Position numbers and translations under genes: made by a program. From assembly GCF_040144835.1 (NCBI RefSeq), contig NZ_CP151632.1, positions 1,860,001 to 1,924,000 on the forward strand: 64,000 nucleotides of DNA. Reading direction: 5' to 3'. Source of the stretch: Microbacterium sp. LWS13-1.2. GTDB taxonomy: Bacteria > Actinomycetota > Actinomycetes > Actinomycetales > Microbacteriaceae. Below are positions 31,195-46,818 of this stretch, one piece after another. Every line of letters starts with the position of its first letter. The stretch's first letter is position 1. The notes under the pieces are model-generated. The model was not told where the DNA came from and did no database searches. It was given only the letters and a program-made list of their open reading frames with translations.

Positions 31195-32495
31195 GATGCC
31201 GCGGGAAGCACGACCGAGAACCGCGCGCCGCCGAGCTGAGAGTCCTCGACGGCCACGCTGCCGCCCTCGGCCTCCGCGATCGCACGGACGATCGCAAGGC
31301 CCAGCCCACTGCCTCCGGCGTCGCGTGCACGTGCCTCGTCGAGGCGCACGAAGCGCTCGAAGATGCGCTCGCGCTCCGCCGCCGGAACGCCCGGGCCGTC
31401 GTCATCGACTGTCAGCAGCACCTGCCCGTCACGCTCGAGCACCCCGATCGCGACAGCCGACCGTGCGTGCCGCGCCGCGTTGTCGGCGAGATTGCGCACG
31501 AGCCGGCCCAGCAAGCGGACGTCACCGCGCACCCGTGCGGCATGGATGCCGGACCCATCGACCACCGCACCCCCGGCGCGGAGCCGTGTGATCTCCGCGA
31601 AGGCGAGGTCGTCGAGGTCGACGGCCTCGTGTTGGATCACGGGACTCTCGTCGAGCCGCGTCAGCAGCAGGAGCGCGTCGACGAGTTCCTGCATCCGCAG
31701 CCCTTCGTCGTGGACCACCCCGGCAAGATCGTCGATCGATGTCGCTTCCGGGTGCAGCTGCGCCAGCTCTGCGTGCTGGCGGATCGTCGCGAGCGGGGAT
31801 CGCAGCTCGTGCGAGGCATCCGATACGAACTGTCGCTGCGCAGCGGCTGCGGCATCCAACCGATCCAGCATTCGATTCATCGTGCAGGCGAGCGCGGCGA
31901 TCTCGTCGCCCGATGCCGGCACGGCGACGCGCCGGTCGAGGCGATCGGCGGAGATGTCATCGACCTCTGCGCGGATGCGCTCCACCGGGCGGAGAGTACG
32001 CCCGACCACCCACCACGTGATCGCGGCGACCAGCGCGACGACCCCGGCGACGGCGACGGCGAGCAGCACCGCGACCGTGGCGAGGGTGCTCTGATCGTCC
32101 TCCACAGACACGGCCAGGAGCAGCGCGCCGCCATCGTCGAGGTCTTCCCGCACGACGACCATCGGTTCGTCGTCGTACGTGATCGCGGGGGCTCCGTCGA
32201 TGTCGGGCAGGTCGCCGCTGTCGGCTTCCTCCGACGTGGCGACGACACGCCCGCCCTCGTCGAGCACCTGCGCGATGTCGTCGTCCAACCCGGTCACCAC
32301 GGCCGGCCCTTCGGCGTCGATCCGGGCCGCGAGCTGCTCGGCGCGCGTCTCGGCAGCACGCACGGTGGCCTCACGGATGCTGACGGACAGGATGCCGTAG
32401 AACGCCAGCGCCCCTCCCACCAGCGCGGCGGCGACGACCAGCGTTGAGGCCGCGGTGATGCGGGTCCGCAGCGAACGGCGACGCCGCTCAGCCAC
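31191..32495 (-). CDS. Sensor histidine kinase (HAMP type)
   Basis: 434 residues. Helix 1 (about 12-33), an extracytoplasmic sensor of about 100 residues (acidic: GLDDDIAQVLDEGG), helix 2 (LATVAVLLAVAVAGVVALVAAITWWVVG), HAMP, then the H-box FVSDASHELRSPL, N-box NLADNAARHA, G1 DDDGPGVP and G2 GGSGLGLAI. All catalytic motifs are intact. Start GTG 32495 overlaps the stop of the response regulator by eight bases. Partner of the frameshifted OmpR-type regulator; signal unknown, though the PepSY-like protein in the operon may influence it. Confidence 0.93.
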   Translation of the reverse strand: MAERRRRSLRTRITAASTLVVAAALVGGALAFYGILSVSIREATVRAAETRAEQLAARIDAEGPAVVTGLDDDIAQVLDEGGRVVATSEEADSGDLPDIDGAPAITYDDEPMVVVREDLDDGGALLLAVSVEDDQSTLATVAVLLAVAVAGVVALVAAITWWVVGRTLRPVERIRAEVDDISADRLDRRVAVPASGDEIAALACTMNRMLDRLDAAAAAQRQFVSDASHELRSPLATIRQHAELAQLHPEATSIDDLAGVVHDEGLRMQELVDALLLLTRLDESPVIQHEAVDLDDLAFAEITRLRAGGAVVDGSGIHAARVRGDVRLLGRLVRNLADNAARHARSAVAIGVLERDGQVLLTVDDDGPGVPAAERERIFERFVRLDEARARDAGGSGLGLAIVRAIAEAEGGSVAVEDSQLGGARFSVVLPAAS

Positions 32496-33166
32496 CGTCG
32501 GCCGCCAGACGGTAGCCCGCGCCGCGGATGGTCTCGATCGCTGCTCGGCCGAACGGCCGGTCGACCTTGCGCCGCAGGTGACCGACGTAGACCTCGACGA
32601 TGTTCGGGTCGCCCTCGAAGTCGTCGTTCCAGACGCCGGCGATGAGGTCGCGCTTGGAGATCACCTGCCCGCGGTGACGCATGAGGTGCTCGAGCACGGA
32701 GAACTCCCGCGACGTGAGCTCGACATCGGTATCGCCGCGCCGCACCGTGCGGGCACCGGGGTCGAGCCGAAGATCGCCCGCCTCGAGCACCGTCGGCCGC
32801 TCGACACCGCCCCGGCGGATCAGCGCACGCAGGCGGGCGACGAGCACGGCGAACGAGAAGGGCTTGGTCACGTAGTCGTCGGCGCCGGTCTCGAGCGCCT
32901 CGATCTGGTCCCACTCGCCGTCCTTTGCGGTGAGCATGAGCACCGGCGTCCAGTTTCTCCTCCGCCCGCAGCGCCTCGCAGACCCGCCATCCGCTCATGC
33001 CCGGCATCATCAGGTCGAGCACGATGGCGTCGTACGCGGTTTCTCGGGCACGCCACAGTCCGTCCACGCCGTTGTGGGCGATGTCCACCCCGAACCCCTC
33101 CGCCTCGAGTCCGCGACGGATGCCGTCCGCGAGGCGCACCTCATCATCCACCACGAGAATCCGCAT
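32488..33166 (-). pseudogene. OmpR-family response regulator, frameshifted
   Basis: The receiver starts normally (MRILVVDDEVRLADGIRRGLEAEGF, Asp in IVLDLMMPGMSGW), reaches CEALRAEEKL, and then shifts: the expected TPVLMLTAKDGEWDQIEALETGADDYVTKPFSF and the winged-helix domain (LTSREFSVLEHLMRHRGQVISKRDL, IRGAGYRL) are in another frame. The slip lies at about 32948-32962, consistent with one extra base. The second part has its own ATG at 32943, so a truncated DNA-binding half might be made. Because the kinase downstream is intact, a sequencing error or a recent mutation is likely; programmed shifting cannot be excluded. The GTG of the kinase overlaps its stop. Confidence 0.8.
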
Positions 33167-33206: not shown

Positions 33207-33303
33207 GCGCCGCCCTCTTCGACGCTCGCCCTGGTGGCCAGCGGTCATCGACGATCAGCCGCGCCAGCCTGAGACGAGGGCGCGATCATGGCTCAGGAGC
33301 CGG

Positions 33304-35043
33304 TCAGCCCGTCGGGCGCCTGGTGCGGTCGAACTGCAGGCCGCTCTCACCCTCGCCGAAGGCGGGAGTGACCAGGCGGCCGATCCAGACGCTCCAGGTG
33401 CCGTCTGCCCTCCGCGCGGCACGCGGGATCCGCTGGACGCGGACTCCCTGCCGCGGAACCTCCGCCGCGATGAGCACTTCCTGCGCGTCCTCGGCGAGGA
33501 GCCGGCCCTTCGCCGCACCATCCACGGCGTCCGCCATGCGGGCCCGGCGCAACAGGACGCCGTCCTCGCTGACCTGGGCGACGTAGGGGTGCCAGTTGTC
33601 GGGCACGAAGGTCTGCAGCTCGTATCCCAGCACCTTCTCGGCCGGCGCGTCGCCGGGGTTGATCGGGCGCGGAGGCGGCATCGCCCCCGCCTTCACGGGG
33701 GCGGGATCGCCCGACACCGCCGGCACGGTCTGCTCGATGGCCCAAACGAGGTTCGCGGTCTCGTCGCGCAGGAAGCGCACGTCCTCGATCGGCGGACCCT
33801 CGAACACCGCCGCGGCCGCGGGCGGCACGAACAGCCCTTCGAGCTCGCCGCGGGGCGCGCCAGGTTCGGGGGCGGCCTCCGTCGTCGTGAACATCCGCCA
33901 CGGCGCGGCGGCGGCGCCGGCGGGCACCGGGGTCGGCTGCTCGGTGAGTTCCCACAGAGATCCGAAGGTGTCGACCCACCGCACACCGTGCACGCGCAGC
34001 ACACCGCCGGGCGGCGTGTCGACGGGCAGCACGAGCCAGTCGTCGCCAGTGACGATCGCGGCTTCGACGACGAGCACGCGAGCGAGCTCGTCCGGGTCGG
34101 CGTAGACGGCGCCGAGCGACACCGCCGCATCCTCGAACTCCCAGAATCTCGAGACGGGCGATCCCGGGAACTCGAGGCGTGACGCGAGCACGTTGCGGGT
34201 GATCGGCTCGGGCGCGTGGCCCGCGGCATCCGGTGCGTTCTCTCGTGGGAGCAGATCGAAGCTCGACCAGCCCACAGTGCCGCCGCCGTACTCGGGGGCG
34301 CTGAGCACTTGCGCCGTCGTCGCCACGCTGAACCCGTACTCCAGGCGTCGGCCCACCCAACTGGACGGGGCGGCTTCGGCTCCACTCTCTTCGGCGAACC
34401 ACGCGCGCCACTCCTCGATCGCGGCGCGCGCGGCCTCGCGGCCTTCGCGCCTGAGAGCGGCGGTGAGCCAGGCCGGATGACTCCGCGCGATCGCGGTGGC
34501 GAACGCTTGGGCATCGAAGGTGCGACCCACGAGCATGCGCTGCGTCTGCGCCCAGTCGCTCGCGTCGTCGCCGAGGGCCGTCACGGGGAACCGCTGCACG
34601 ATCCTCGCGATTGTGGTGGCCTCGCCGAGCTCGGCGAGAACGTCCTGCAGCGCCCACGCCGCAACCGCCGCGAACCGCGTGTGCCCCGAGCCGTCGGGTG
34701 GAGGATCGGATGCCTCGGCCTCGACGTGCGGCTCGAGCAGGTCGCCGGCGCGCCACGCCTGCCAGTCGCGGGAATCCCCCTCTTCGGGAAGCGGTCCCGG
34801 GTGCCAGGCTGTGATCGGATCGAACTCGGCCGAGACGGTCACCGCGAGCGGGGTCCCGGTGTCTTCGCCGGCGAACTCGCCGAACTGCCATTGCCGGCCC
34901 AGCATCCACAGTGGATCCCAGACCTGAGCCATGAGGCCGACCTCGGGGTCACCGCTGACCGGGTTCGGCTCGATCCGGGTCGCGAAGGGCACGATGCCCG
35001 TCACCGCACTGATGGCCGTCGCGGGCCGGAACACACTCGCCAT
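33304..35043 (-). CDS. Unknown protein, 579 aa, last gene of the four-gene giant cluster
   Basis: Not recognised as any characterised family. The N-terminal 100 residues hold the striking block LMAQVWDPLWMLGRQWQFGE followed by FAGEDTGTPLAV, which looks like a family signature. The middle is aromatic- and arginine-rich (DWQAWRAGDLLEPHVEAEA, WLTAALRREGREAARAAIEEWRAWF), and the C-terminal third is beta-rich (VLGYELQTFVPDNWHPYVAQVSEDG, WSVWIGRLVTPAF). No signal peptide, no membrane helix and no obvious catalytic motif. AAGGAG precedes the ATG. It is 27 bases downstream of the 1375-residue gene, so it is made with it. A structural or assembly role is a guess. Confidence 0.85.
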   Translation of the reverse strand: MASVFRPATAISAVTGIVPFATRIEPNPVSGDPEVGLMAQVWDPLWMLGRQWQFGEFAGEDTGTPLAVTVSAEFDPITAWHPGPLPEEGDSRDWQAWRAGDLLEPHVEAEASDPPPDGSGHTRFAAVAAWALQDVLAELGEATTIARIVQRFPVTALGDDASDWAQTQRMLVGRTFDAQAFATAIARSHPAWLTAALRREGREAARAAIEEWRAWFAEESGAEAAPSSWVGRRLEYGFSVATTAQVLSAPEYGGGTVGWSSFDLLPRENAPDAAGHAPEPITRNVLASRLEFPGSPVSRFWEFEDAAVSLGAVYADPDELARVLVVEAAIVTGDDWLVLPVDTPPGGVLRVHGVRWVDTFGSLWELTEQPTPVPAGAAAAPWRMFTTTEAAPEPGAPRGELEGLFVPPAAAAVFEGPPIEDVRFLRDETANLVWAIEQTVPAVSGDPAPVKAGAMPPPRPINPGDAPAEKVLGYELQTFVPDNWHPYVAQVSEDGVLLRRARMADAVDGAAKGRLLAEDAQEVLIAAEVPRQGVRVQRIPRAARRADGTWSVWIGRLVTPAFGEGESGLQFDRTRRPTG

Positions 35044-35070
35044 GTCACACTCCTTCCCTTGGCACGGGTC

Positions 35071-38000
35071 TCATTCGTTCTTCAGGAAGGCCGGAACCGA
35101 GAGCGCGACAGCGAGCAGGGCCCTCGGATCGACCGTGTGCGCGTCCACCCGCGACCAGTGGTCGAGGCTGATCGCCGGCAGGATCTCCCCCATCTCGGCG
35201 ATGTCCGCGGGGGTCGCGACGCGCATTCGCACGAGACTGCTGACCTCGTCGAGCAGGTCCAGCAACCGCTCCTGCGACCACCCCTGCTCATCCGGCGGAA
35301 CGGCGAGCAGGAGCGCCTGGGGCGCTCGTGCCGACGGTGCCTGCGCGTGCACGGCCAGACCCGTCGTGACGAGCGCAGTACGCGTGTCGTCCTCCATGCG
35401 GCGCAGCGCCGGCCGCTTCTCGGCCCACTGATCGACGACGAGGCCGGAAAGAGCGCCGCCCGGCGAGAATCCCCGCGGCGGCGAGGTCGGCCCGAGCAAC
35501 TCGACGACGACCGAGGTCACCGCATGATTCGGGTCGGGAAGATCGGCATCCCCCGCCCAGCGCTCCGCGCCGAACAGCGCGATGCGCAGTGCTGCGGGGC
35601 TCCCGGACGCGCGTCGCAGGGCGGCGAGCGTCGCCCATGCGGCGACCGGCGGCCGCACCGTCGACATGCGGGCGAGCCAGCGGCGGACGACCGCTGCGTC
35701 CGTCGCGGCCGGACGCAGCGCGGCCACGATCGCCGGGGCATCGGGGGCGGCGGGGGGATCGAGAACCTGGACGACCGGCAGGCGCCCCACGATGTCGCCC
35801 AGCGCAGCGCCCGCGCCGGCGCCGGCGGCATCCGCCGCCGCGAGACGACCCTGGGCGACCGCGGCGAGGCCTCCCACGTAGCCGGCAAGCAGCTCCGGAT
35901 CGATCGTGGCCGCATCCACATCGTCGCCGATGCCGATCGCGGCGAGTTCGTCAGCGCGCCGCAGCAGTGCGGAGGTGCTCGCACCCGGCGGAACGTCGGC
36001 GATGCCCTCGATGCCCCGGCGGGCCGTCTCCAGCCGGGCACCGAGGTCGGCGCCGTCGACGACGTGCCGGGGGTCGGTCGAGCCATTGCCCACCAGGTCG
36101 TCGGGTGCCAGGCCGCGGGCCGACGACAACACGGCGCGGGCGGCCGCGGCCAGTTGCCAAGCCTCCGCGATCGTGATGCGGGACGCGGCCAGCACCGCCG
36201 GCCGGACGGTCAGCGGCTTCTCCGGCAGACCTGCAGAGCCCCGACGGCATCGCGCCCAGAACCGCTCGAGTCCTTGCGGGCTGCCGTCGGAGGCCATGAC
36301 GAACTCGAGGGCGGACACCCGGGCTCGGGCGAGCGTCCGCTGCGCTGCGGGTCCGGTGACAGAGATCGCGATCCGGGTGGCCGGTCCGAGGACGCCTCGG
36401 CACCAGAGCTCGAGGAAGGGATGCGCGCCGCTGCGGATTCCGGACACCCAGCCACTGTCGTCGTCGTCCGCCGCCCTGGTCGCCCCGCCGACGACCGCCA
36501 GGCGGTACGTCGCGCCGTCCTGTTCCGGCGCTGCGAAGGGGATCTGGGGCTCTTCCGGGATCGTGTCGCCGGAGACCGCATTCATGGCGGCGGCGGCACG
36601 CGCGGGGTTGCCTGAGACGAGCTGGTGGACGCCCTCGGCGAGCAGCAGGTCCGACACCGCGTCGGCGAGCTGGTCGAGACGGTCGACGCACGCCACGACC
36701 TTGTCGAGATCGTCGACTCCCGGTGCGCCCGGAGCTCGGAGCGTCGGCGCGCGCCAGCCCTCGTACGTCTGTGGCGCGGTGAGCACGGGCTCGAGGATCT
36801 CCCGACGACGTGCGGGATCATCGAGTCTCTTCAGCAGCCCCAGTCCGTCGACGACCGCGCCGGTGTGCGACATCGGCGTCGCACCGTCCGCCGGCGTCTC
36901 GCGCCCGACGACCAGCGGCGCGAACGCGCGGAGGACCAGGAGGAACCTGTTGAGGGAGGCATCCGTCTCATGCAGCCGGCGTTCGAAGCGGTAGCCCAGG
37001 AGCGCACCCAGGTCCTGCCCGGCGCGCATGCCGCGCACGATGTCGACGGCCTGCCGCATGCGGGTGCTGCTGACGTCGAGCTCGAGCGGCGAATCCGGCC
37101 CATCCATCGGGGCATGCGTCAGCCGGGCACCACGCAGCACGGCGGCCGCCGCGGCATGCGCCGTGGTGGGGGCCTGAATCCAGCCGACCCCGCTGGCGGC
37201 GGCGACGTCGTCGGCGGCGCGGGGCGTCAGCGCGATGTCTTCGAGCCATGCGAACGCGCCGATCGTCACACCGTCGGGCGCGCCCTGACGCACCTCGGAG
37301 AGGCGCCGGGTCGCCAGCGACGTCACCCACGCGTCGAGGCGGTGGGAGGCGGCATCCAGGGCGCCCGCGAGCAGCTGCTCGCGCACCTGCGAGTCGTCGA
37401 CCGTCGTGAGGTTGCGGATGCTGTCGCGGGTGCGGCCGGCGAACGCGAGGGCGACGACGTACTCGACCAGCTGCGCGAGCGCACGCAGCGCCCGCGTGTA
37501 CGCCCCGAACTGTTGCCGGACGCCGCGCAACCGCGCGGTCACCCTCGTGCGGGCGGCAAGGCTCGTCACCAGTTCCCCGAGGCGGGACCTCAACAGATCG
37601 ATCACCCGAGCGCCGGTCTCGGCATCCAGGGCCGCGGGGACGTCGAAGAGGGCGGGATCGAAGATCGCGTCGAGCAGCTCGTCGAACGCGCCCTGATCCG
37701 CGACGAGCTCCCGGAGGGGCTCCAGCGTCTCGCGCAGCGCCGGAGCGAGCTCACCCGGCTCCCCGTGCCCGACGGAGTCGAGCAGCTGTCGCAGCTGGAA
37801 TCGCGCATCGGCTTCGGCTGCCGCCCACGCCGAGCTCAGCAGCAGCTGAAGGACGCTTCCCTCGCACACCGCGTCGGGAGACTGTGCGAGAGCCTCGATC
37901 GCGGGCACATCGTCGTCGGCGACGAGCGGCAGAGCGAGCATCCGAGGACCTCCGAGATGCGGCACGCGCTGCAGCGTGAACGGCCTGAGACCCATGCCTT

Positions 38001-39198
38001 CCTCGAGCTTGCGCGTGACGTCATCACGGTCGGCCTCGTCGGCGGCGAAGCGACCGGCCGACAGCGCCGCGCCCAGCGGGCCGCTGGTGGGCAGCATCCG
38101 TCGCACGCGCACGTTCCGGCTCGCCGGCGCGAGCCCCAGGATCCACGGGAGCGTCTCCGCCAGATCACCCACCCGCACCGTGCGGGGCTGCGCATTCGCC
38201 CACATCGGCCACGCGGCGCGTACCGCCCGTTGCACCAGCGCGTGCCCCCGGACGCCGGACGCGAGGGCACTCGTGAGCGTCACGGGCACGATGCCGTAGG
38301 GCTGGCGTCCGACCCGCACCGCCGGGTACGGTCCCGCGGGCCGCACGAACGTCCGCACATGGTCGGCCACGTCGAGGCGATCGAACGGGCCGATCGCCCG
38401 CGGGCGGATGGCCCGGCTCAGCCACGGACCCCATGTCACGGGCCACAGCGCATCGGCCATCCAGGAGGCTCGGGCGTCCACGGCGGTCGCGCCGGGCCAG
38501 TCCGCGAAGCTTCCCGCTTCGAGGCCGAGGGCTCGGGCGAGCGTGCCCGCACCGCCACCGGTCGTCGGGTCTGCGTCGCCCGCGGTGGCGGTTCCCCAGC
38601 CGGAGCGAGCGGCATCCGTGTTGTTCGTGGGTGTGCCCGCCGCGACGAGGGCGCGGTCGGGGTGGGCCTGCAGAGCGGCGAGCACCTCACGTGCCGCGGC
38701 GGCCGGATCGAGTGGGTCGGATCGGCGCAAGCCGATGACCACCAGGCGCTGAATCGTGGCTGTTCCCGCGCTCAGCGGCACGGTGATCGCCAGGCCCGCG
38801 CCGACCGCGGCCTGGTAGTCGCGCAGCCAGAGGGCGGTTCCACCCGTCCCCTCGGCGAGCGATCGCAGCGACGCGATGCCCTCGTCGAAGGCGTCGGTCT
38901 CACCTTCAGCGGGCGGCTGATCGATCTTCCCGAGTGGGATGCCGAGCGCCGCCGAATCGATCGGCGCGCCCTCGGCGATGGACTCGATCCCATCCTGCGT
39001 GACGATGACACGGAACGCGTCGGGCAGCAGGCGCAGCGCCCCGGCGGGATCGGTCGCGACGTCGTCAGGCCAGATCCGCACGCGGAGGTCGACGTCGCCC
39101 CCCGGCGCGTCACGCCAATACGACTTCGTCTCGACGCGGACGGGCACGAGCAGCAGCGGGAGCTCGGAAGCGGCGTCGAGCCATGGGTCCATGTCCAT
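35071..39198 (-). CDS. Unknown giant protein, 1375 aa, third gene of the cluster
   Basis: A single uninterrupted frame, reading MDMDPWLDAASELPLLLVPVRVETKSYW at the start, a beta-rich opening. Notable segments are YPAVRVGRQPYGIVPVTL (about 290-310), followed by long alanine/arginine-rich helical regions, AFGWLEDIALTPRAADDV-like blocks in the middle and a final FSPGGALSGLVVDQWAEKRP. No signal peptide, no clear membrane helix, no nucleotide-binding loop, no protease or nuclease motif recognised. It begins three bases after the stop of the 1041-residue gene (TGACGCATG), so translation is probably coupled. Sense codon use and GC pattern look like neighbouring genes. Large antisense frames over it are shadows. 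Function unknown. Confidence 0.85.
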   Translation of the reverse strand: MDMDPWLDAASELPLLLVPVRVETKSYWRDAPGGDVDLRVRIWPDDVATDPAGALRLLPDAFRVIVTQDGIESIAEGAPIDSAALGIPLGKIDQPPAEGETDAFDEGIASLRSLAEGTGGTALWLRDYQAAVGAGLAITVPLSAGTATIQRLVVIGLRRSDPLDPAAAAREVLAALQAHPDRALVAAGTPTNNTDAARSGWGTATAGDADPTTGGGAGTLARALGLEAGSFADWPGATAVDARASWMADALWPVTWGPWLSRAIRPRAIGPFDRLDVADHVRTFVRPAGPYPAVRVGRQPYGIVPVTLTSALASGVRGHALVQRAVRAAWPMWANAQPRTVRVGDLAETLPWILGLAPASRNVRVRRMLPTSGPLGAALSAGRFAADEADRDDVTRKLEEGMGLRPFTLQRVPHLGGPRMLALPLVADDDVPAIEALAQSPDAVCEGSVLQLLLSSAWAAAEADARFQLRQLLDSVGHGEPGELAPALRETLEPLRELVADQGAFDELLDAIFDPALFDVPAALDAETGARVIDLLRSRLGELVTSLAARTRVTARLRGVRQQFGAYTRALRALAQLVEYVVALAFAGRTRDSIRNLTTVDDSQVREQLLAGALDAASHRLDAWVTSLATRRLSEVRQGAPDGVTIGAFAWLEDIALTPRAADDVAAASGVGWIQAPTTAHAAAAAVLRGARLTHAPMDGPDSPLELDVSSTRMRQAVDIVRGMRAGQDLGALLGYRFERRLHETDASLNRFLLVLRAFAPLVVGRETPADGATPMSHTGAVVDGLGLLKRLDDPARRREILEPVLTAPQTYEGWRAPTLRAPGAPGVDDLDKVVACVDRLDQLADAVSDLLLAEGVHQLVSGNPARAAAAMNAVSGDTIPEEPQIPFAAPEQDGATYRLAVVGGATRAADDDDSGWVSGIRSGAHPFLELWCRGVLGPATRIAISVTGPAAQRTLARARVSALEFVMASDGSPQGLERFWARCRRGSAGLPEKPLTVRPAVLAASRITIAEAWQLAAAARAVLSSARGLAPDDLVGNGSTDPRHVVDGADLGARLETARRGIEGIADVPPGASTSALLRRADELAAIGIGDDVDAATIDPELLAGYVGGLAAVAQGRLAAADAAGAGAGAALGDIVGRLPVVQVLDPPAAPDAPAIVAALRPAATDAAVVRRWLARMSTVRPPVAAWATLAALRRASGSPAALRIALFGAERWAGDADLPDPNHAVTSVVVELLGPTSPPRGFSPGGALSGLVVDQWAEKRPALRRMEDDTRTALVTTGLAVHAQAPSARAPQALLLAVPPDEQGWSQERLLDLLDEVSSLVRMRVATPADIAEMGEILPAISLDHWSRVDAHTVDPRALLAVALSVPAFLKNE

Positions 39199-39201
39199 GC
39201 G

Positions 39202-42200
39202 TCATCCCTCGCCGATGAGTTCCTGCACGCGCCAGCCGACCCGCGCCGGTTTCTGGAAGAGCGCCCACGCGATACGAGCGCTCGTGTAAGTCCCCTCGGG
39301 TTCGGGCACGCCCGGCGGGTTACCCGGCGGTCGCGGCGGCCAGATCCTGGGGACGAACGCGTTGAGGTGCTCACCCTCCTTCTTCCAGTGCTCCCACGTC
39401 AGCTCGTCCCGAACCGGCTGAGGTTCGATCGGGTCCTCCGGCTCATTGATGTCGAGCCCGAACCGCGGAGCGCCTATGTGCTCGGCCAGCGTGAACCAGT
39501 TGGCACCCGACGCGGGATGGACCGGATCGGTTGTGGGGTCCTGTGCCTTCGCGACCTCGTCGGTGAGGTCGAATCCGGCGAGAAGCAGGTCCGGCGTCAG
39601 CGGGATGCGGAAGATCGGCTCCACCGGCTGCGCCGCGTACTTCACGGGGTAGTCCGGCGCAGTCGAACGGACCACCGTCGCGATCACATGGGGGAAGCGC
39701 CGGATGAGCTCGCCGCGCACGACGAACACGAGCTTGCCGGCTCGTTCCGGATCGGCCAGGGCCCCGAGCCCTGCCGGTCCGCGGAGGGTGTGGATCGGCG
39801 CGATGTCAGGCTCCGTCGTCCAGAAGCGTCGCAAGCTCGACGCGCGGCCGTCTGTGGGGTACTCGCGCCAGACCAGCTCCCGCGCGAACTCGTGGTTGGC
39901 GCCGATGAGGAACGAGGACACGAAGCGTCCGTTGGTCTCCATCGCCGTCACCATGTCGTGGGGCTGGATGGCCGCCACCCCCGGCATGATCCACTCCTGG
40001 TCGTACCGGTTGAGCGCCTCGATGAGCGGCCGGCGGAACTCCGGCGCCGCCATCACAGTGTCGAGGTCGTCGGGAGCGCGCCCGAACATCTCCGCCAGAC
40101 CCGGGAGGCGCGTACGCAGTCGTCGCGGCACCGTGAGAGCGGGCAGCAGCCGCCCCGATAGATCCAGCACCGTCAGGTCGAGCCTCGGGCGCGGCGCCTC
40201 GACGGGCTCGGGGTCACGAACCACCGCCTCGTTGAACGTCTCGAGGACGACGCCGCTCGGCCCCTCGAACAGCGGGCGGATCTCTCCTTCGTCGGGCCCG
40301 AACTCCTCCCAGTCGAGCGCGACGCCCTCGATCCCCTCTCCCTCGCAGACCCGCCGGACCTCCTCACCGATCGGATCGAAGACCCAGGCTCGCAGCTCGT
40401 CTTGAGCGAAGGAGCGATACCCCGGTTCCGGCGGCAGACCGCTCGCCGGGAACCGCGCCAGGCAGGCCATCGGCAACTCCCACTCCTGGCGACTGCGCGC
40501 AATCCCCCACGCGAGGGCCACGTCGGCGGCCGCATCGTCGAGCCGACCGGCGAGCGCCGTGTCACGCTGCCAGGCGTCGATCTCCTCCGGGAGTGGAAGG
40601 GCGTCCAGCAGGTCCGCCAGGATCGCTGCCGCCTCGCGCTCGCCGTCGACGTGGAAGACGTCCTCGAGCCCCTCTCCTTGTTCGAGCAGACGCATGGGCT
40701 CGGTATGGGTCAACACGCCGGGTCCGGGTACAGGAAGCACCCAATCGGCCCCGTTGCCGTCGTCGTCCGCGAGGAGCGCGGTCGCCGCGAGCGTCCTCTC
40801 GTCCGCCGCCGTGAACCGCGCGACGCGCCCGAAGGGCCGGGCGATCCGTCGCATGGTGGCGCCCGCAGCCGCGAACGGCAGAGCACTGGCCGAAACGGCG
40901 CCGCGCGCGGTGAGCTCGTCGCCGACCGGAATGTGGGCCAGGGCGCGCTGCGTCACGCCGAGCGTGTCGCCGGCGCTCATGCGCGCGATCGTGCGGCGGT
41001 GCAGCGCGGTCGACGCCAACTCCGCGAACCGGGCGCGGTTCAGCACGCGGTTGGCCTCGAGCACATTCTGCAGCTGCGACCATGCACCGGCCATCAGCGG
41101 CTCCTGGTCCATCCGGACCACGGATGTCCCGAGCCCGGCCGCGATCCGCTCGGCCGGGTCGAGATTCAGCTCGGCGAGCCAGGGCGGGTTCTCTCCCTCC
41201 GCAGGCAGCGCCGTCGCGAGCACGTGCGCTCCCCCGTAGAGCGGAGGACCGACCTCCGGATCGGCGTCGGTCGAGGCGGGCACGTCAACGAGGTCGCGCA
41301 GCCTGACCTCTGAGGCGGCGGTCAGCTGCCCAGGGTCGCCGGGCGCCGGTGCCGTCTCTGCACCGGGCGCCACGAGCGCTCCGAAGACGTCGCGCGGACC
41401 GACGGCGCCGGTGACTCCCATCCCTGCATCGGAGGTGTCGACGAGCCGCCGGCCGAGACCTTCGGGAGTGGGGACGCCCTCGATCCGTTCGGCGAGCTCT
41501 TCGAATCCGAGCAGCCCTGCGGTCGCGAACTCCCACGTGTCGTACCCCGGAAGAATGACCTTCGAGTCCGGCCCCGCCGCAGGACTCCACGACCAGGCCA
41601 GCGTGGCCATGGGAGCACGCCCGAGAGCCGCGTCGACTCCCGCCTGGAAGGTCGGCACCACGATCGCACGCCACTGCCGGTCGGGTGCCAGCCGGCGCGG
41701 TGCGAGCAGTCGCGACAGATTCAGCCGTGGCGACCCCGAGCCGAGGCTGCGGGCGAGGAGTCCGGCATCCGTCCTGTGTGTTCCGAGCACCTGCGCGTGC
41801 GCCCATCCCCATGCCTCGTCTGGCCGCGGAAGGTCACCGATCCTCAGTTCGAAGGTCTCCGGCAGCTCCGGCCGCAGCGGCGGCTTGCGGACGGCGTTCT
41901 CGGCCGGCACGACGACCAGCCGCAGCCACGGCGGGAGCCTGCCGTCTCCGCTCGGTGCGGTCGGTGTGAACAGCCAGGGCAGGTCGGGCTGGTCGAATTC
42001 GATGTGGGCGAGGTCGCCCGTCGTCGCATCCGCCGTGCCGGGTGCCGGGTAGCGCCGGATGATCTGCGCCGGGTCGATGCCGAGCACGGCCCCGGGACCG
42101 CGCACCTCCACCTCCTGCTGCACCCGTGCGAGGCCGCCGTGTCCGTCGGACAGGTCGAACGACACGTCGATGCGCGCGGTCGCCGAGGCATCGGTGGAGA

Positions 42201-42327
42201 ACTGCGGATGACGGATGCCGGCTGCGGCGCCGGTGCGGAAGTAGGGCACGAAGGTGAAGCTCTCGCCGTGCGCAGGTTCGGCGATCACGGCCGGAAGCCG
42301 TGCCGCGACGTCGACCATGCCCATCAC
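39202..42327 (-). CDS. Unknown giant protein, 1041 aa, second gene of the cluster
   Basis: Starts MMGMVDVAARLPAVIAEPAHGESFTFVPYFRTGAAAG and overlaps the stop of the 930-residue gene by four bases. The first 200 residues look like beta-sandwich (ATARIDVSFDLSDGHGG, LPPWLRLVVVPAENA). A conserved-looking core lies in the last third: FGRAPDDLDTVMAAPEFRRP, then GRFVSSFLIGANHEFAREL and VWREYPTDGR. The C-terminal tail is proline-rich (PRIWPPRPPGNPPGVPEPEG). No secretion signal or enzyme motif seen. By order and size it belongs with the other three cluster genes; no function can be assigned. Confidence 0.85.
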   Translation of the reverse strand: MMGMVDVAARLPAVIAEPAHGESFTFVPYFRTGAAAGIRHPQFSTDASATARIDVSFDLSDGHGGLARVQQEVEVRGPGAVLGIDPAQIIRRYPAPGTADATTGDLAHIEFDQPDLPWLFTPTAPSGDGRLPPWLRLVVVPAENAVRKPPLRPELPETFELRIGDLPRPDEAWGWAHAQVLGTHRTDAGLLARSLGSGSPRLNLSRLLAPRRLAPDRQWRAIVVPTFQAGVDAALGRAPMATLAWSWSPAAGPDSKVILPGYDTWEFATAGLLGFEELAERIEGVPTPEGLGRRLVDTSDAGMGVTGAVGPRDVFGALVAPGAETAPAPGDPGQLTAASEVRLRDLVDVPASTDADPEVGPPLYGGAHVLATALPAEGENPPWLAELNLDPAERIAAGLGTSVVRMDQEPLMAGAWSQLQNVLEANRVLNRARFAELASTALHRRTIARMSAGDTLGVTQRALAHIPVGDELTARGAVSASALPFAAAGATMRRIARPFGRVARFTAADERTLAATALLADDDGNGADWVLPVPGPGVLTHTEPMRLLEQGEGLEDVFHVDGEREAAAILADLLDALPLPEEIDAWQRDTALAGRLDDAAADVALAWGIARSRQEWELPMACLARFPASGLPPEPGYRSFAQDELRAWVFDPIGEEVRRVCEGEGIEGVALDWEEFGPDEGEIRPLFEGPSGVVLETFNEAVVRDPEPVEAPRPRLDLTVLDLSGRLLPALTVPRRLRTRLPGLAEMFGRAPDDLDTVMAAPEFRRPLIEALNRYDQEWIMPGVAAIQPHDMVTAMETNGRFVSSFLIGANHEFARELVWREYPTDGRASSLRRFWTTEPDIAPIHTLRGPAGLGALADPERAGKLVFVVRGELIRRFPHVIATVVRSTAPDYPVKYAAQPVEPIFRIPLTPDLLLAGFDLTDEVAKAQDPTTDPVHPASGANWFTLAEHIGAPRFGLDINEPEDPIEPQPVRDELTWEHWKKEGEHLNAFVPRIWPPRPPGNPPGVPEPEGTYTSARIAWALFQKPARVGWRVQELIGEG

Positions 42328-45116
42328 GCACCCACCCTCGTCATCGCGGCGAGTCCGCCCTGGACACCCCGGGCGCTAAAGAGCGCATCGCTCCAGGGCG
42401 CGAAGTCCGCGCGCAGGGCGCCGGAGGCGACATCCGTCACGCGCACCTCCGACACCGGGCGCACCTCGATGCGTCGCTCGGCCAGCTGGGGACGCCAGTC
42501 CTCCGCGCTGCGCAGCGCCGAGCTGCCGGCGGGACCCGCGTCCAGCAGGAGCCGGAGCATCGCATCCGAGATGAGCAGGCGCATGGGCTCGATGGGTTCC
42601 TCGGGCCGGCCGGGCCACGAGTCCTCGTATTCGAGCTCGACGGAGTGCACGAATGGCAGGAGGGCTGCGGCATCCGTCTCCGCCGTGGAGAGGTCGATGG
42701 TGAGCCCGCCTTGGCGGTCCTCGAAGTCGGGTGCGCCGAGCTGCGCGTCCGCCGAGAGCTGGAGGAGCTGGCCGATCGCGAACGACTCCGTCACCGAAGA
42801 GGAATCGACGGCGGCGCCGGGCGCTCCGCCGACCGCACCGACACGGACGCCGCCGGGGACGGCGAGCCGGCATTTGGCGGGGGCGACGGGCGCTGCTCCG
42901 ACGCGTTCGATGGTCATCTGCCACGGGAAGCGCCGCTGTGAGCACCGGACGAGCTCCCACGGCGCGATGACAGTGGGGCTGTCGCCGCCACCCGCGGGCA
43001 CACCAGGGACGGGTGTCATGCGGACCGGCACGTACTGACCGGCGCGTTCCGCGCGCTGCCACGCCTCGGGAAGGTTGAGGGCCTCCGCGACCTTGGCGAG
43101 CGGCGCGACGGCCTCGAGCGCGGGTGACGCCGGGCGCGAGGGGCCGAAGGTGATGGGTCCGACGTCGATGCTCGGGTCGGGCAGCGGCCACGGCAGCGAG
43201 AAGCGCCCGCGCCCCTCGATGGTCCAGGGGCTCGGGCCGGTCAGGCGACCGGACAGCTGCACGCCGAGGAGCGCGATGCCGAAGGCCTCCACGTGCACGC
43301 CGGCGCTGATCGCGACCTCGAACCCGAACGGGTCGAGCTGGATGAGGGCGTCCAGGGTGAGGCTCCCCCGCACGGCGGCGACCGCAACGGAGTAGCCGAT
43401 CTCGATCGATCCGCCGAACTGCACCGTGTTCGGCGTGACGGCGACGTAGCCCTCCAACCGGAGTTGCAGGCCGACGGGCGGAGACATCTCTGCGCCGATG
43501 CGCCGCATCCCGGTGAGCTCCCCGGGGATCGCCGTGAACTTCGGGTGGAACCCGCCGGCGCTGAGGTAGACGCCGGGGTCGTCGAACCGGATGAGCAGTC
43601 CGAGGCTGCCGTAGACGGAGAACAGTGCGATGCGCGAGTTGTAGAGCTCGGCACGCAGCAACACCTTTCCGCGGCCGAACTGCGCCATCACCCCCGCGCG
43701 CAAGTCGATGATCGGGGCCTCTTCGGTGGGGAGCGCCGCCCTGGCAAGGCCGACGATCACGATCACCGGGTCGGGGGCGGCGAGCACGACCCCCACGTCG
43801 AGCGTGAAGAGGCTGATCGGGCGACCCCACGCGAGCTGCACCATGGGACCGACGACGAAGCTTCCGGCCTTCGCCGGAAACACCCGGCCCAGCGTCTGAA
43901 GGATCGTCGGGGCAGCGGCGACGACGTCGGGCGGGAACATGAGCTGTTCCAGCACGCCGTCCTTGATGCCGGCGGCGATCGCGTCGGGCATCACGTCGAC
44001 CCCGAGACCCACGATGCCGCCGACCGCGTTCAGCGTGAAGAGGAGCCCCAGTTCGATCGGCACCGGGAACCGCATCGACATGACGACGACGAACGACATC
44101 GCGCCGTCGACTTCGCGGAAGAGCCCGAAGGCATCGACCTTGACGGGTCCGATCGTGAGGGCGAGCGCGCCCCCGAACCCGCCCTGAACCACTCTGAGGT
44201 AGCCGCCGCCGGAGACCGGTCCGGCGTCGAGCGAGATGCCGATCGCCTCGGGCACGAGAAACGACGGGTCGCCGAACGGCTGCTGGCCGGCGAGGATGCG
44301 GGCGGGGTCGATGGGCAGCCGGAGTCCGGCCCCGTCGACTCGGGCTTTGAGGACGCCCAGCAGCTCTGTGAGCAGCCGACTGCGGAGATCGATACGCAGG
44401 TCGCCGCCCTCGGCATTCAGCGCCAGATCGAGTCCCTGCAGCTCGACCACCTGCGCATCGAGCCGGGCGGGCAGTGCGATCGGCCCCACGGCGCCCCGCG
44501 TCGTGACGCCGCGCGCGTCGACGGTGAAAGCCAGGTCGGTCGATGCCGACCCTGCAGCGCCGATGAGCTTGCGGATGAGTCCGTCGGTGCCGCGGCCGAG
44601 ATCGATGCTCGCACCGCTGCCCGCGACGGTCATGCTGAGGCCCGGCGCACCGAACCGCACCGTGAGCTCGACCGCGTCGACCTGGAACGGCGGAGCCGAT
44701 GCGCTGGTTCCCTTCCAGGTCACCTCGAGGAGCGGTGAGCCGTTGTCGTCGGCCTTCATGGCGGCGACGGGCGAGCGCAGGCCGAGGCCCTGGAGGAGCG
44801 CTCGCGGCGGGGCCTCCTCGATCGCCTTCTGCGCGACCACATCGAGCTTCACCCCGAGAATGGTCGCGGCCGCGTCGACTTCGCCCAGTGCATCCCACAG
44901 GTGCCGCGTCCCATTCGCCAGGTCACCGGCGTCCAGCGCCGTGACCGCGGTGGCGAGCTGCGTGCCGGCAGTGGTCAGATGGCCCTGCACCTGCACCGCA
45001 TCCGCGAGCGGCTTCTCGACCAGTTCCGCGAGCTTCTGCGCCGTGTCGAGGGTGGCGAGTCTGCCTGCCGCGTAGCGCAGCGCGGCTGCAAGCAGCTTTC
45101 GAGCGGTATCGTCCAC
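42324..45116 (-). CDS. Large beta-rich protein, 930 aa (DUF6603-like), first gene of the cluster
   Basis: Start GTG 45116 with AGGGA nearby. Residues 1-115 are helical (KLAELVEKPLADAVQVQGHL...). From about 120 to 650 the chain is built of short alternating-hydrophobic strands with glycine turns (LSMTVAGSGASIDLGRG, GGFGGALALTIGPVKVDAFG, VTPNTVQFGGSIEIGYSVA), the pattern of a long beta solenoid, groove or barrel. Residues 650-930 form a different domain (VIAPWELVRCSQRRFPWQMT). The middle resembles what I recall as DUF6603, a domain without known function; that match is from memory and unverified. No signal peptide. It heads the operon and has a perfect -35 TTGACA about 145 bases upstream. Confidence 0.85.
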   Translation of the reverse strand: MDDTARKLLAAALRYAAGRLATLDTAQKLAELVEKPLADAVQVQGHLTTAGTQLATAVTALDAGDLANGTRHLWDALGEVDAAATILGVKLDVVAQKAIEEAPPRALLQGLGLRSPVAAMKADDNGSPLLEVTWKGTSASAPPFQVDAVELTVRFGAPGLSMTVAGSGASIDLGRGTDGLIRKLIGAAGSASTDLAFTVDARGVTTRGAVGPIALPARLDAQVVELQGLDLALNAEGGDLRIDLRSRLLTELLGVLKARVDGAGLRLPIDPARILAGQQPFGDPSFLVPEAIGISLDAGPVSGGGYLRVVQGGFGGALALTIGPVKVDAFGLFREVDGAMSFVVVMSMRFPVPIELGLLFTLNAVGGIVGLGVDVMPDAIAAGIKDGVLEQLMFPPDVVAAAPTILQTLGRVFPAKAGSFVVGPMVQLAWGRPISLFTLDVGVVLAAPDPVIVIVGLARAALPTEEAPIIDLRAGVMAQFGRGKVLLRAELYNSRIALFSVYGSLGLLIRFDDPGVYLSAGGFHPKFTAIPGELTGMRRIGAEMSPPVGLQLRLEGYVAVTPNTVQFGGSIEIGYSVAVAAVRGSLTLDALIQLDPFGFEVAISAGVHVEAFGIALLGVQLSGRLTGPSPWTIEGRGRFSLPWPLPDPSIDVGPITFGPSRPASPALEAVAPLAKVAEALNLPEAWQRAERAGQYVPVRMTPVPGVPAGGGDSPTVIAPWELVRCSQRRFPWQMTIERVGAAPVAPAKCRLAVPGGVRVGAVGGAPGAAVDSSSVTESFAIGQLLQLSADAQLGAPDFEDRQGGLTIDLSTAETDAAALLPFVHSVELEYEDSWPGRPEEPIEPMRLLISDAMLRLLLDAGPAGSSALRSAEDWRPQLAERRIEVRPVSEVRVTDVASGALRADFAPWSDALFSARGVQGGLAAMTRVGA

Positions 45117-45233
45117 CGCGTGTCCCTGCGCTCAGAACTGATCAGAGCCCGGTGGAGCCCCATACCACCGGAGCGAGGCCCGGCGATCGTCGCACCGGAC
45201 GACCGCGGGTTCGAGGAAGGCGCATATCTGCGC

Positions 45234-45266
45234 GTTATCGTCCTCGCCTCCGGACCTGGCTGTCAA
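45234..45266 (-). promoter_or_regulatory. Candidate promoter of the giant-gene cluster
   Basis: In the 170-base gap between the oxidase-like gene and the cluster, the minus strand carries TTGACA (45261-45266) followed after 18 bases by GACGAT or after 21 by GATAAC. The -35 is perfect, the -10 weak. No repressor-like palindrome is obvious, and no other promoter was seen inside the cluster. Confidence 0.4.
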
Positions 45267-45286
45267 GACCGTGCGCACGCACCGGG

Positions 45287-45754
45287 CTACAGCACGGGCA
45301 CCCGGTTCTCGTGCTCGTCGAGCACCCATACCTGCAACGCCGTCGCCAGGTACAGCCGGTGGGGAGCGTCTGCCGAGACCGCCGACATGTCCCACGTCGA
45401 CAGTCCGGATGCCTCGCACTTCGCGTTGAATATCGCAAGCGCGCCCGCGAGTTCGTGGTCCGGCACCTGCGCCGCGGCCGCCTCGACGTAGACCGCGCTC
45501 GCGGAGCCCGCTTGGACAGTCGAGTCGAAGACGACGAGCGCGATCTCGGCGCGCTGTGCGACGTTCAGCGAGTGCCGCCGCGTGGTTCGGGACACCCAGA
45601 CGTACCGGCGCAGACCGCGCTCCGCGAACCAGATCGGCGTCACCCACGGGCGACCGTCCACGTCGGCGGTGGCGAGTGTTGCGTAGGAGTTCTCGTCGAT
45701 GATGCGGCGCGCGGCATCTGTCGGCGACTCGTCTGCCGTGAATGTCATGCTCAT
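45287..45754 (-). CDS. Pyridoxamine 5'-phosphate oxidase-like (FMN/F420-binding) protein
   Basis: 155 residues with the split-barrel flavin-binding fold: ARRIIDENSYATLATADVDGRPWVTPIWFAERGLRRYVWVSRTTRRHSLNVAQRAEIALVVFDS holds the core strands. In such proteins this domain binds FMN or F420 and reduces or senses small molecules; it is not necessarily a PdxH. The start is ATG 45754 or 45748. Oddly, its start codon overlaps the start region of the aldo/keto reductase on the other strand, leaving no room for a promoter between them. It ends 170 bases upstream of the giant cluster, on the same strand. Confidence 0.85.
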   Translation of the reverse strand: MSMTFTADESPTDAARRIIDENSYATLATADVDGRPWVTPIWFAERGLRRYVWVSRTTRRHSLNVAQRAEIALVVFDSTVQAGSASAVYVEAAAAQVPDHELAGALAIFNAKCEASGLSTWDMSAVSADAPHRLYLATALQVWVLDEHENRVPVL

Positions 45755-46571
45755 GGCTACCAGACGGTGCCCGGCCGAGGCCGTGGCATCCGCCCTGCAG
45801 ACCGGATACCGGCTCGTCGACACCGCCGCCGCGTACGCGAACGAGCGTGGCGTGGGCGACGCCCTCCGCGCGTCCGGCATCGACCGTGACGACGTCTTCC
45901 TCGAGTCGAAGGTGTGGATCTCGGACTACGGATACGACGAGACCCTCCACGCCTACGAGAAGAGCGCCCGGAAGCTGCAGGTCGACGTCATCGACCTGTT
46001 CATCCTGCACCAGGCCCTTCCCGGCGAGTTCGACAAGACGATCGCGGCGTACAAGGCGCTGGAGCAGCTGCTCGCCAACGGCAAGGTGCGCGCCATCGGC
46101 GTCAGCAACTTCATGATCGACCACCTCGAACGGCTGCTCGCGGAGACGACGATCGTGCCGTCCGTCAACCAGATCGAAGTCCACCCATACTTCCCGCAGA
46201 AAGAACTGCAGGCCCTCGGCGCCGAGCGCGGCATTCTCACGCAGGCGTGGTCGCCGATCGGCGGCATCACCTCCTACCGTGGAGACGACGCCAAGAGCAC
46301 CTTCAACGACCCGGTCATCCTCGAGATCGCCGCGGCACACGGCAAGACCGCCGCCCAGGTGATGCTCCGCTGGCACATCCAGAACGGTGTCCAAGCCATC
46401 CCGAAATCGGTCAAGCCCGAGCGGATCGCCGAGAACTTCGACGTGTTCGACTACGAGCTCACCGACGATGAGATCGCTCGCATCGACGCCCTCGACACGG
46501 GCGTTCGCGGCGGGCCGGCGCCCGAGGCCATCACCCTCGAGACATTCGGGCGCGACACCCCGGAGGAATGA
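45753..46571 (+). pseudogene. Aldo/keto reductase, 5'-truncated
   Basis: 272 residues if started at ATG 45753 (MATRRCPAEAVASALQTGYRLVDTAAAYANE). Intact relatives begin about 20 residues earlier with a strand and NNGVEMPxLGFG-type segment that caps the barrel; here this is missing and the frame runs straight into the divergent neighbour. The catalytic tetrad (Asp in VDTAAAY, Tyr in AAAYANE, Lys in ESKVW, His in ILHQ) and NADPH-binding IPKSVKPERIAEN are present. Either a deletion removed the 5' end and promoter, or a shortened protein survives. Codirectional with the broken XRE gene just downstream. Confidence 0.7.
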
Positions 46572-46595
46572 GCCGGACACTCAAGGAGGAGGAGC

Positions 46596-46762
46596 GTGGC
46601 AGGCGTGGACAACCAGACCGAGGTGCGCGAATTCCTCGCCACCCGACGAGCGCGGCTCACCCCGGAGCTGGCCGGAATCATCGGTCGTGGGCGTCGCTGC
46701 GTCCCGAGGAAGTCGCGATGCTCGGGCGGCGCCGTATCTCGACGGACCCGCCGCGGGCATAG
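46596..46762 (+). pseudogene. XRE/HTH regulator fragment, frameshifted
   Basis: GTG 46596 with AGGAGGAGGAG upstream opens MAGVDNQTEVREFLATRRARLTPELAGII, the N terminus of actinobacterial XRE regulators of the kind found next to AKR genes. Near 46680-46690 the frame shifts: SWASLRPEEVAML, corresponding to the family's RRVPGLRREEVALLAG, is in another frame. Similarity stops at about 46745, so most of the protein is gone. With the truncated AKR gene this marks a decayed regulator-reductase pair. Confidence 0.7.
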
Positions 46763-46818
46763 ATGTGTGCACCAAGCCGCGCGCCGGCATACCGACGCAA
46801 ACTCCGGAAACACGAAAA

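Follow-up and report, generated by a model that had tools for sequence, protein, structure and literature searches.

Four chained genes on the minus strand

We analyzed a 64,000-nucleotide stretch of the genome of Microbacterium sp. LWS13-1.2 (contig NZ_CP151632.1, positions 1,860,001 to 1,924,000), referred to below as the window, in whose own coordinates positions are given unless a locus or record is named. Between positions 33304 and 45116 the minus strand carries four chained genes, G1 to G4, which encode proteins of 930, 1041, 1375 and 579 aa, or about 3,900 residues together. The coordinates, lengths and spacing that an earlier note on this DNA had given for them were reproduced exactly: G1 and G2 overlap by 4 bases, G2 and G3 are separated by 3 bases, and G3 and G4 by 27 bases.

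G1, 42324..45116, minus strand: 930 aa, GTG start; DUF6603 (PF20248); model pLDDT 83.7
G2, 39202..42327, minus strand: 1041 aa, GTG start; open reading frame with profile relatives
G3, 35071..39198, minus strand: 1375 aa, ATG start; the longest subunit
G4, 33304..35043, minus strand: 579 aa, ATG start; model pLDDT 79.6

The earlier note had read the unbroken frames as a sign of selection. At the GC content of the window DNA (about 72%) opposite-strand frames are kept long too, with plus-strand shadow frames of 1178 and 799 aa lying opposite the cassette, so that long open frames are weak evidence of coding. All four genes are nonetheless real, because homologues of each are kept across phyla. 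A codon score also ranked G1 to G4 among the likely genes of the window, although it was trained on these same four genes and is hence not independent. The single-contig genome of 4.33 Mb contained one match for G1 and one for G3.

A gene for an aldo-keto reductase, at 45699 and divergently oriented, is the next one upstream of G1, 582 bases away. The candidate promoter of the earlier note did not reappear in a sigma-70 consensus scan (0 found against 0.1 expected), a weak test in a high-GC organism, for which the consensus says little. Neither the list of open reading frames nor a scan of the flanks showed a co-directional enzyme gene abutting G1 in the window.

At the other end, G4 is adjoined by a response-regulator gene on the minus strand (32294-33166 and 32488-32943) whose receiver and DNA-binding parts lie in different frames. 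The same gene is one open frame in a close relative, and the split is either a broken gene or a sequencing error.

G1 is a DUF6603 protein with a predicted beta-meander

The view that the four proteins have no recognised function held, with the addition that G1 belongs to a named family. It matched Pfam DUF6603 (PF20248) with 297.3 bits against a cut-off of 27 over residues 222-789 (42750-44453). DUF6603 is a named family of unknown function, and the open-access literature that we searched contained no mention of DUF6603 or PF20248. In many relatives 340-420 aa precede the DUF6603 core of G1. A crude script found a signal-like start in 0 of 65 G1 proteins. The model of G1 was divided into two regions:

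G1 N-terminal helical head, 44784..45116, minus strand: residues 1-111, from the secondary structure of the model
G1 beta-meander, 43146..44780, minus strand: residues 113-657, about 30 antiparallel amphipathic strands in the model, with lower model confidence over residues 113-240

The alternation score for strand amphipathicity was 2.64, compared with 1.19 ± 0.17 for shuffled sequences, and none of 2000 shuffles scored as high; in the model the meander shows one hydrophobic face. Porins, LptD and ApoB100 were returned as structural neighbours of the G1 model, with an rmsd of about 9-10 Å and a TM score of about 0.17, so only the general build, a large amphipathic antiparallel beta-meander, is common to G1 and these proteins. 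Differences from outer-membrane barrels, LptD and ApoB100 are that the crude script found no signal-like start, that the hosts include Actinomycetota and haloarchaea, and that the superposition is poor.

G2, G3 and G4 in family and fold searches

G2 consists of two conserved halves and a variable middle. It had no match in Pfam, NCBIfam, PHROG, PADLOC or the PDB, and its profile matched 75 open reading frames across the 80 loci described below. For G3, relatives of which are encoded in 419 stretches (contigs, one genome per species), no match exceeded the cut-off in Pfam, NCBIfam, PHROG or PADLOC, and the best PDB E-value was 0.43. G4 has at least 238 protein relatives; it gave no match above the cut-off in Pfam, NCBIfam or PADLOC, and comparison of its model with solved structures gave no convincing fold. 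The only PHROG match for G2 to G4 was weak (E 0.1, function unknown), and profile searches of solved structures returned nothing useful for these three proteins.

For all four window proteins, PADLOC returned 0 families at E 1, Pfam and NCBIfam showed no NTPase or nucleic-acid-binding domain, and Pfam and PHROG showed no phage-tail, sheath, RHS or Tc family. Confident hits to housekeeping families, which the earlier note had named as evidence against its proposal, were not found for any of the four. Sheath, tube, baseplate and ATPase families were likewise absent from 20 flanking open reading frames scanned with Pfam.

The four genes are conserved as one unit

The gene-neighbourhood survey suggested in the earlier note was run on a set of loci chosen by G3, namely the best 80 of the 419 G3-encoding stretches, with one genome per species and gene starts set by a codon script. 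It showed the same order in distant genomes. With profiles of the four proteins, G1-G2-G3-G4 were all present, with order and strand kept, in 67 of the 80 loci. Twelve of the remaining 13 were interrupted by a contig end before the missing gene, and L044 was the sole locus with upstream room yet without G2, which is either real or a bin error. The junction between G1 and G2 was an overlap in 44 of the 67 loci, and in 40 loci its length was 4 bases exactly.

Pairwise distances of the four proteins were correlated (r 0.78-0.91 over 36-48 loci), compared with permuted maxima of 0.10-0.33, and G3 and G4 were found in one open frame in L034, L051, L062 and L142. The kept order and strand, the correlated divergence and the fusions together strongly support the earlier note's claim of a single system. 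The G4 tree by itself has rows from nine bacterial phyla.

Plasmid records contained relatives of G2 (13 records) and G4 (14 records), four haloarchaea among them. All four profiles matched in order on the Salinigranum, Halalkalicoccus and Natrinema plasmids. On the Halobellus plasmid NZ_CP134947 (L102) only G1 to G3 were in order, with G1 annotated short and G3 in two open reading frames; the protein behind G3 failed the G4 profile, a G4 relative was located elsewhere (68833-70821 of the record), and the cassette looks rearranged. A Rhizobium plasmid encodes G2 and G3 each from two overlapping open reading frames.

Viral contigs gave no confirmed relative of the cassette. The record MT835531 (L108), filed as a phage from human faeces, contains G2 to G4 together with a portion of G1 and has the look of a bacterial contig of high GC content.

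Some DUF6603 genes lie outside the cassette

Independent occurrence of homologues, which the earlier note had named as an argument against a system, was found in part. In a phylum sample of 396 genomes, DUF6603 was present in 12 and G3 in eight. Among the four DUF6603 genomes without G3, the contig of L097 stops inside G2, and in the other three (L096, L098 and L099; 3 of the 12 DUF6603 genes of the sample) DUF6603 adjoins other large genes, with no G3 or G4 by profiles. One of these neighbours appears remotely related to G2: the profile of relatives of the large L098 protein matched the initial part of G2 (hhalign 95%, E 3.4e-8). The large protein of L099 gave a weak match to the G2 profile (43.8 bits), and among the relatives of the L098 protein some have CBM96 or cellulose-binding modules. 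Judged by these profiles, the DUF6603 loci L096, L098 and L099 are a sister type of the cassette.

The cassette is sparse and apparently transferred

Within the genus, G3 was present in 3 of 149 genomes, the window's own included, and the three genomes carry the cassette at three different places. In the window its neighbour is a two-component system; in M. ureisolvens (L003) the neighbours are a PRK-family kinase gene (by Pfam; pantothenate kinase-like by eye) and a gene that is glmS-like by eye; and in the genus member G081 the neighbour is, by eye, glutamine synthetase-like. A blastn comparison of the window with L137 (G049) showed similarity that ends at 33216 and resumes at 46804, which defines the following feature:

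Strain-variable stretch, 33217..46803, no strand assigned: the cassette and the aldo-keto reductase gene; blastn against L137 (G049)

In the close relative, 4.4 kb that show no blastn similarity occupy this site, and its histidine kinase is 94% identical.

The G4 tree mixes phyla. The phylum label required 21 changes with L102 included, and 0 of 200 shuffles were as low; without L102, a doubtful row with no G4-profile match and a very long branch, it required 20 changes against a minimum of 8. Both trees were built from G4 alone with a quick method, and the mixing that they display fits repeated transfer but does not prove it. Since it is sparse, occupies three genomic places in the genus and mixes phyla on the G4 tree, the cassette is apparently horizontally transferred.

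A varying enzyme gene precedes G1 in many relatives

Beyond what the earlier note had described, many relatives carry, directly ahead of G1, a gene for an enzyme or a binding-domain protein whose family varies. A co-directional gene in this place (the front gene) was scored in 49 of 62 loci, within 63 bases of G1 in 41 and overlapping it in 19. The script skipped L012, L018 and L041, in which the match to G1 is split in two, and counted L048 as having no front gene; in all four the gene is present by similarity or gene table. Several of the 13 loci scored as without a front gene had little upstream room.

A family scan of 20 representatives placed close-lying front genes above the cut-off in the PhoD, phospholipase D, M64, M14, beta-lactamase-like and S8 families, and also in Het-C, galactose-oxidase-like, LGFP and WD40. 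The trypsin match lay just below the cut-off and the PKD match below it; the front genes of L058, L061, L008 and L062 had no family match, and that of L079 had a single one, below its cut-off. The PhoD-like family lay ahead of G1 in 14 loci and on the Salinigranum plasmid, with further relatives in L140 and L105, and the trypsin-like family in seven loci. The trypsin triad residues His, Asp and Ser were invariant in seven aligned front proteins, as were the PhoD-site motifs in their front-protein alignment; we take these residues to be catalytic. Members of the PhoD-like family are not confined to the cassette: strong matches were also obtained in genomes of the phylum sample that have no DUF6603. 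More distant front genes (PRK, ferritin-like and M23, at gaps of 180-252) may be ordinary neighbours. In a crude test, none of 46 front genes showed a signal-like start, compared with 43 of 381 other neighbours.

Two side observations concern the front genes. In L035 (1-750) and L016 (948-1334) a second, separate open reading frame repeats the domain found at the C-terminus of the trypsin-like front protein, as if this domain were an adapter common to several partners. The same front gene, of an unknown family, was present in L058 (1728-2549) and L141 (13330-14199), an alphaproteobacterial bin and an actinobacterial genome.

When the types of tight partners were placed as labels on the G4 tree, 15 states over 33 rows required 15 changes; taken singly, the PhoD-like label required 4 changes and the trypsin-like label 5. 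On this tree partners of one type tend to cluster, with a degree of exchange. The counts do not establish repeated free swapping, because the 15 changes compare with a least possible number of 14 and several types are single rows.

The part of G1 that precedes the core had a median length of 370 aa where a tight front gene was present (43 loci) and of 172 aa where it was absent (18 loci; Mann-Whitney P 6e-5, not corrected for kinship). This test skipped L024, in which G1 is split, and five loci with a cut or near-end G1, and sorted L018 as without a front gene; an earlier hand-made grouping of 39 versus 14 loci, which left out five short-headed Streptomyces-type loci and L024, gave the same P. 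A short head despite a tight front gene was found in L049 (13 aa), L050 (14 aa), L058 (23 aa) and L008 (182 aa), and a long head without a tight front gene in L052, L056 and L069. No tightly linked front gene was present in the window, in its Microbacterium relatives L003 and L004 or in G081, so the enzyme does not belong to every version of the cassette.

Surface-type modules and a membrane-type hairpin

Several cassette proteins are fused to additional modules: Kelch repeats on G1, FG-GAP on G2, lamin-tail (LTD) domains on haloarchaeal G4, and PG_binding_1 on the G4 homologue P0151. These are mostly of a type familiar from extracellular proteins. A Streptomyces plasmid carries a peptidoglycan-binding domain on a front gene, and some Streptomyces loci have peptidoglycan-active or -binding neighbours. 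A crude script found a hydrophobic, membrane-type hairpin region in 10 of 71 G2 proteins, the carriers of which are not one clade. In L027, Kelch repeats stand at the end of G1 and a separate Kelch gene lies between G1 and G2; the gene table gives L073 the same layout.

Discussion

Our best explanation, to which we give about an even chance, is that G1 to G4 make up a single cassette, moved horizontally, for a large four-subunit complex, here called the chassis. The earlier note's suggestion of a single large assembly, not a pathway, agrees with the evidence and is kept here as a proposal, while its delivery or structural system is one reading among several. Of the steps that we infer, we are most confident that the G1 to G4 subunits bind each other, as the G3-G4 fusions and the translational overlaps suggest. 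With less confidence, the front-gene enzyme would dock on the chassis, perhaps at the N-terminal extension of G1; such docking would have exceptions, because head length breaks the rule in both directions (four and three loci). Third in confidence, the beta-meander of G1 would be the scaffold, its hydrophobic face turned in on the sheet itself or covered by a partner subunit or by lipid. The arrangement of parts is most likely a scaffold formed by G1 with G2, a part formed by G3 and G4, and an enzyme held in front where its gene exists. The window version, which lacks an adjacent enzyme gene, might use an enzyme coded elsewhere or be a binder or structure only.

The step in which we have the least confidence is that the complex acts at the cell envelope or outside. 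This location is proposed as probable because of the peptidoglycan-binding, lamin-tail, Kelch and FG-GAP modules, the peptidoglycan-binding front gene and peptidoglycan-type neighbours in Streptomyces, and the hairpins in some G2 proteins. Despite the proposed location, almost no cassette protein showed a signal peptide in the crude scripts; the complex might get there by lysis or by an unrecognised route, or stay at the inner membrane by means of the hairpin. More broadly, and tentatively, the cassette may stand for an undescribed class of machines of bacteria and archaea, in which a four-subunit chassis that is mobile and has no origin in phage tails presents an exchangeable enzyme at the envelope or beyond it, or delivers it there; we hold this to be possible, at somewhat less than an even chance.

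Other readings were weighed against these observations. An intracellular conflict (defence) system, in which G1 to G4 sense and hold and the front hydrolase is the effector inside the cell on infection, would agree with the sparse and apparently transferred presence, the plasmid copies, the strain-variable site and the varying front hydrolases without signal-like starts. However, known anti-phage defence systems gave no PADLOC model match for G1 to G4, no NTPase or nucleic-acid-binding domain was found in the window proteins, the fused modules are mostly of the extracellular-protein type, and several copies have no adjacent effector, and we regard this reading as unlikely. We consider quite improbable a particle, either released or bound to the surface, that works like contractile or Tc-type machines without deriving from them and carries the front enzyme to other cells. 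The lack of any match to phage-tail, sheath, RHS or Tc families in the four window proteins, the lack of a confirmed relative in viral contigs and the copies without an adjacent payload speak against it, although a chassis with a varying payload without signal-like starts, the neighbours in some Streptomyces loci that act on or bind peptidoglycan, and the hydrophobic hairpin in some G2 proteins would all suit a delivery device.

Handling of lipids or other hydrophobic molecules was also considered, with the one-sided sheet of the G1 model as a lipid-carrying groove or barrel and front enzymes that modify the lipid. A lipid-binding beta-belt or bridge-like lipid transfer protein would hold lipid in a hydrophobic groove; in the G1 model one hydrophobic face was observed. 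The amphipathic meander, its porin, LptD and ApoB100 neighbours, and the phospholipase D and PhoD families among the front enzymes point this way, but the superposition is so poor that only the general build is common, and several partners (trypsin-like, M14, M64, subtilase) are proteases. We think it very unlikely that this is what the cassette does.

Compared with known systems, the four-subunit chassis that we favour has at most a possible analogy to contractile injection systems, tailocins and Tc toxins, in its conserved chassis and varying enzyme without signal-like starts. None of the contractile or tailocin families was matched in G1 to G4 in Pfam or PHROG, and no TcA, TcB or TcC match (RHS, SpvB, pore) was found in Pfam, a comparison made at sequence level for G2 and G3. 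Nothing on the cassette was found in the open-access literature, subscription papers and preprints being outside that search. Three of the four proteins matched none of the families and systems searched, with G2 and G3 compared by sequence and G4 by sequence and model.

This set of about 3,900 residues, in which three of the four proteins matched no searched family, stays linked in at least nine bacterial phyla and in haloarchaea. The breadth, the fixed order and the varying enzymes would be surprising to a specialist. If the proposal is true, such a chassis and its varying enzyme would amount to a machine of a new kind and would offer a natural means of holding or presenting enzymes.
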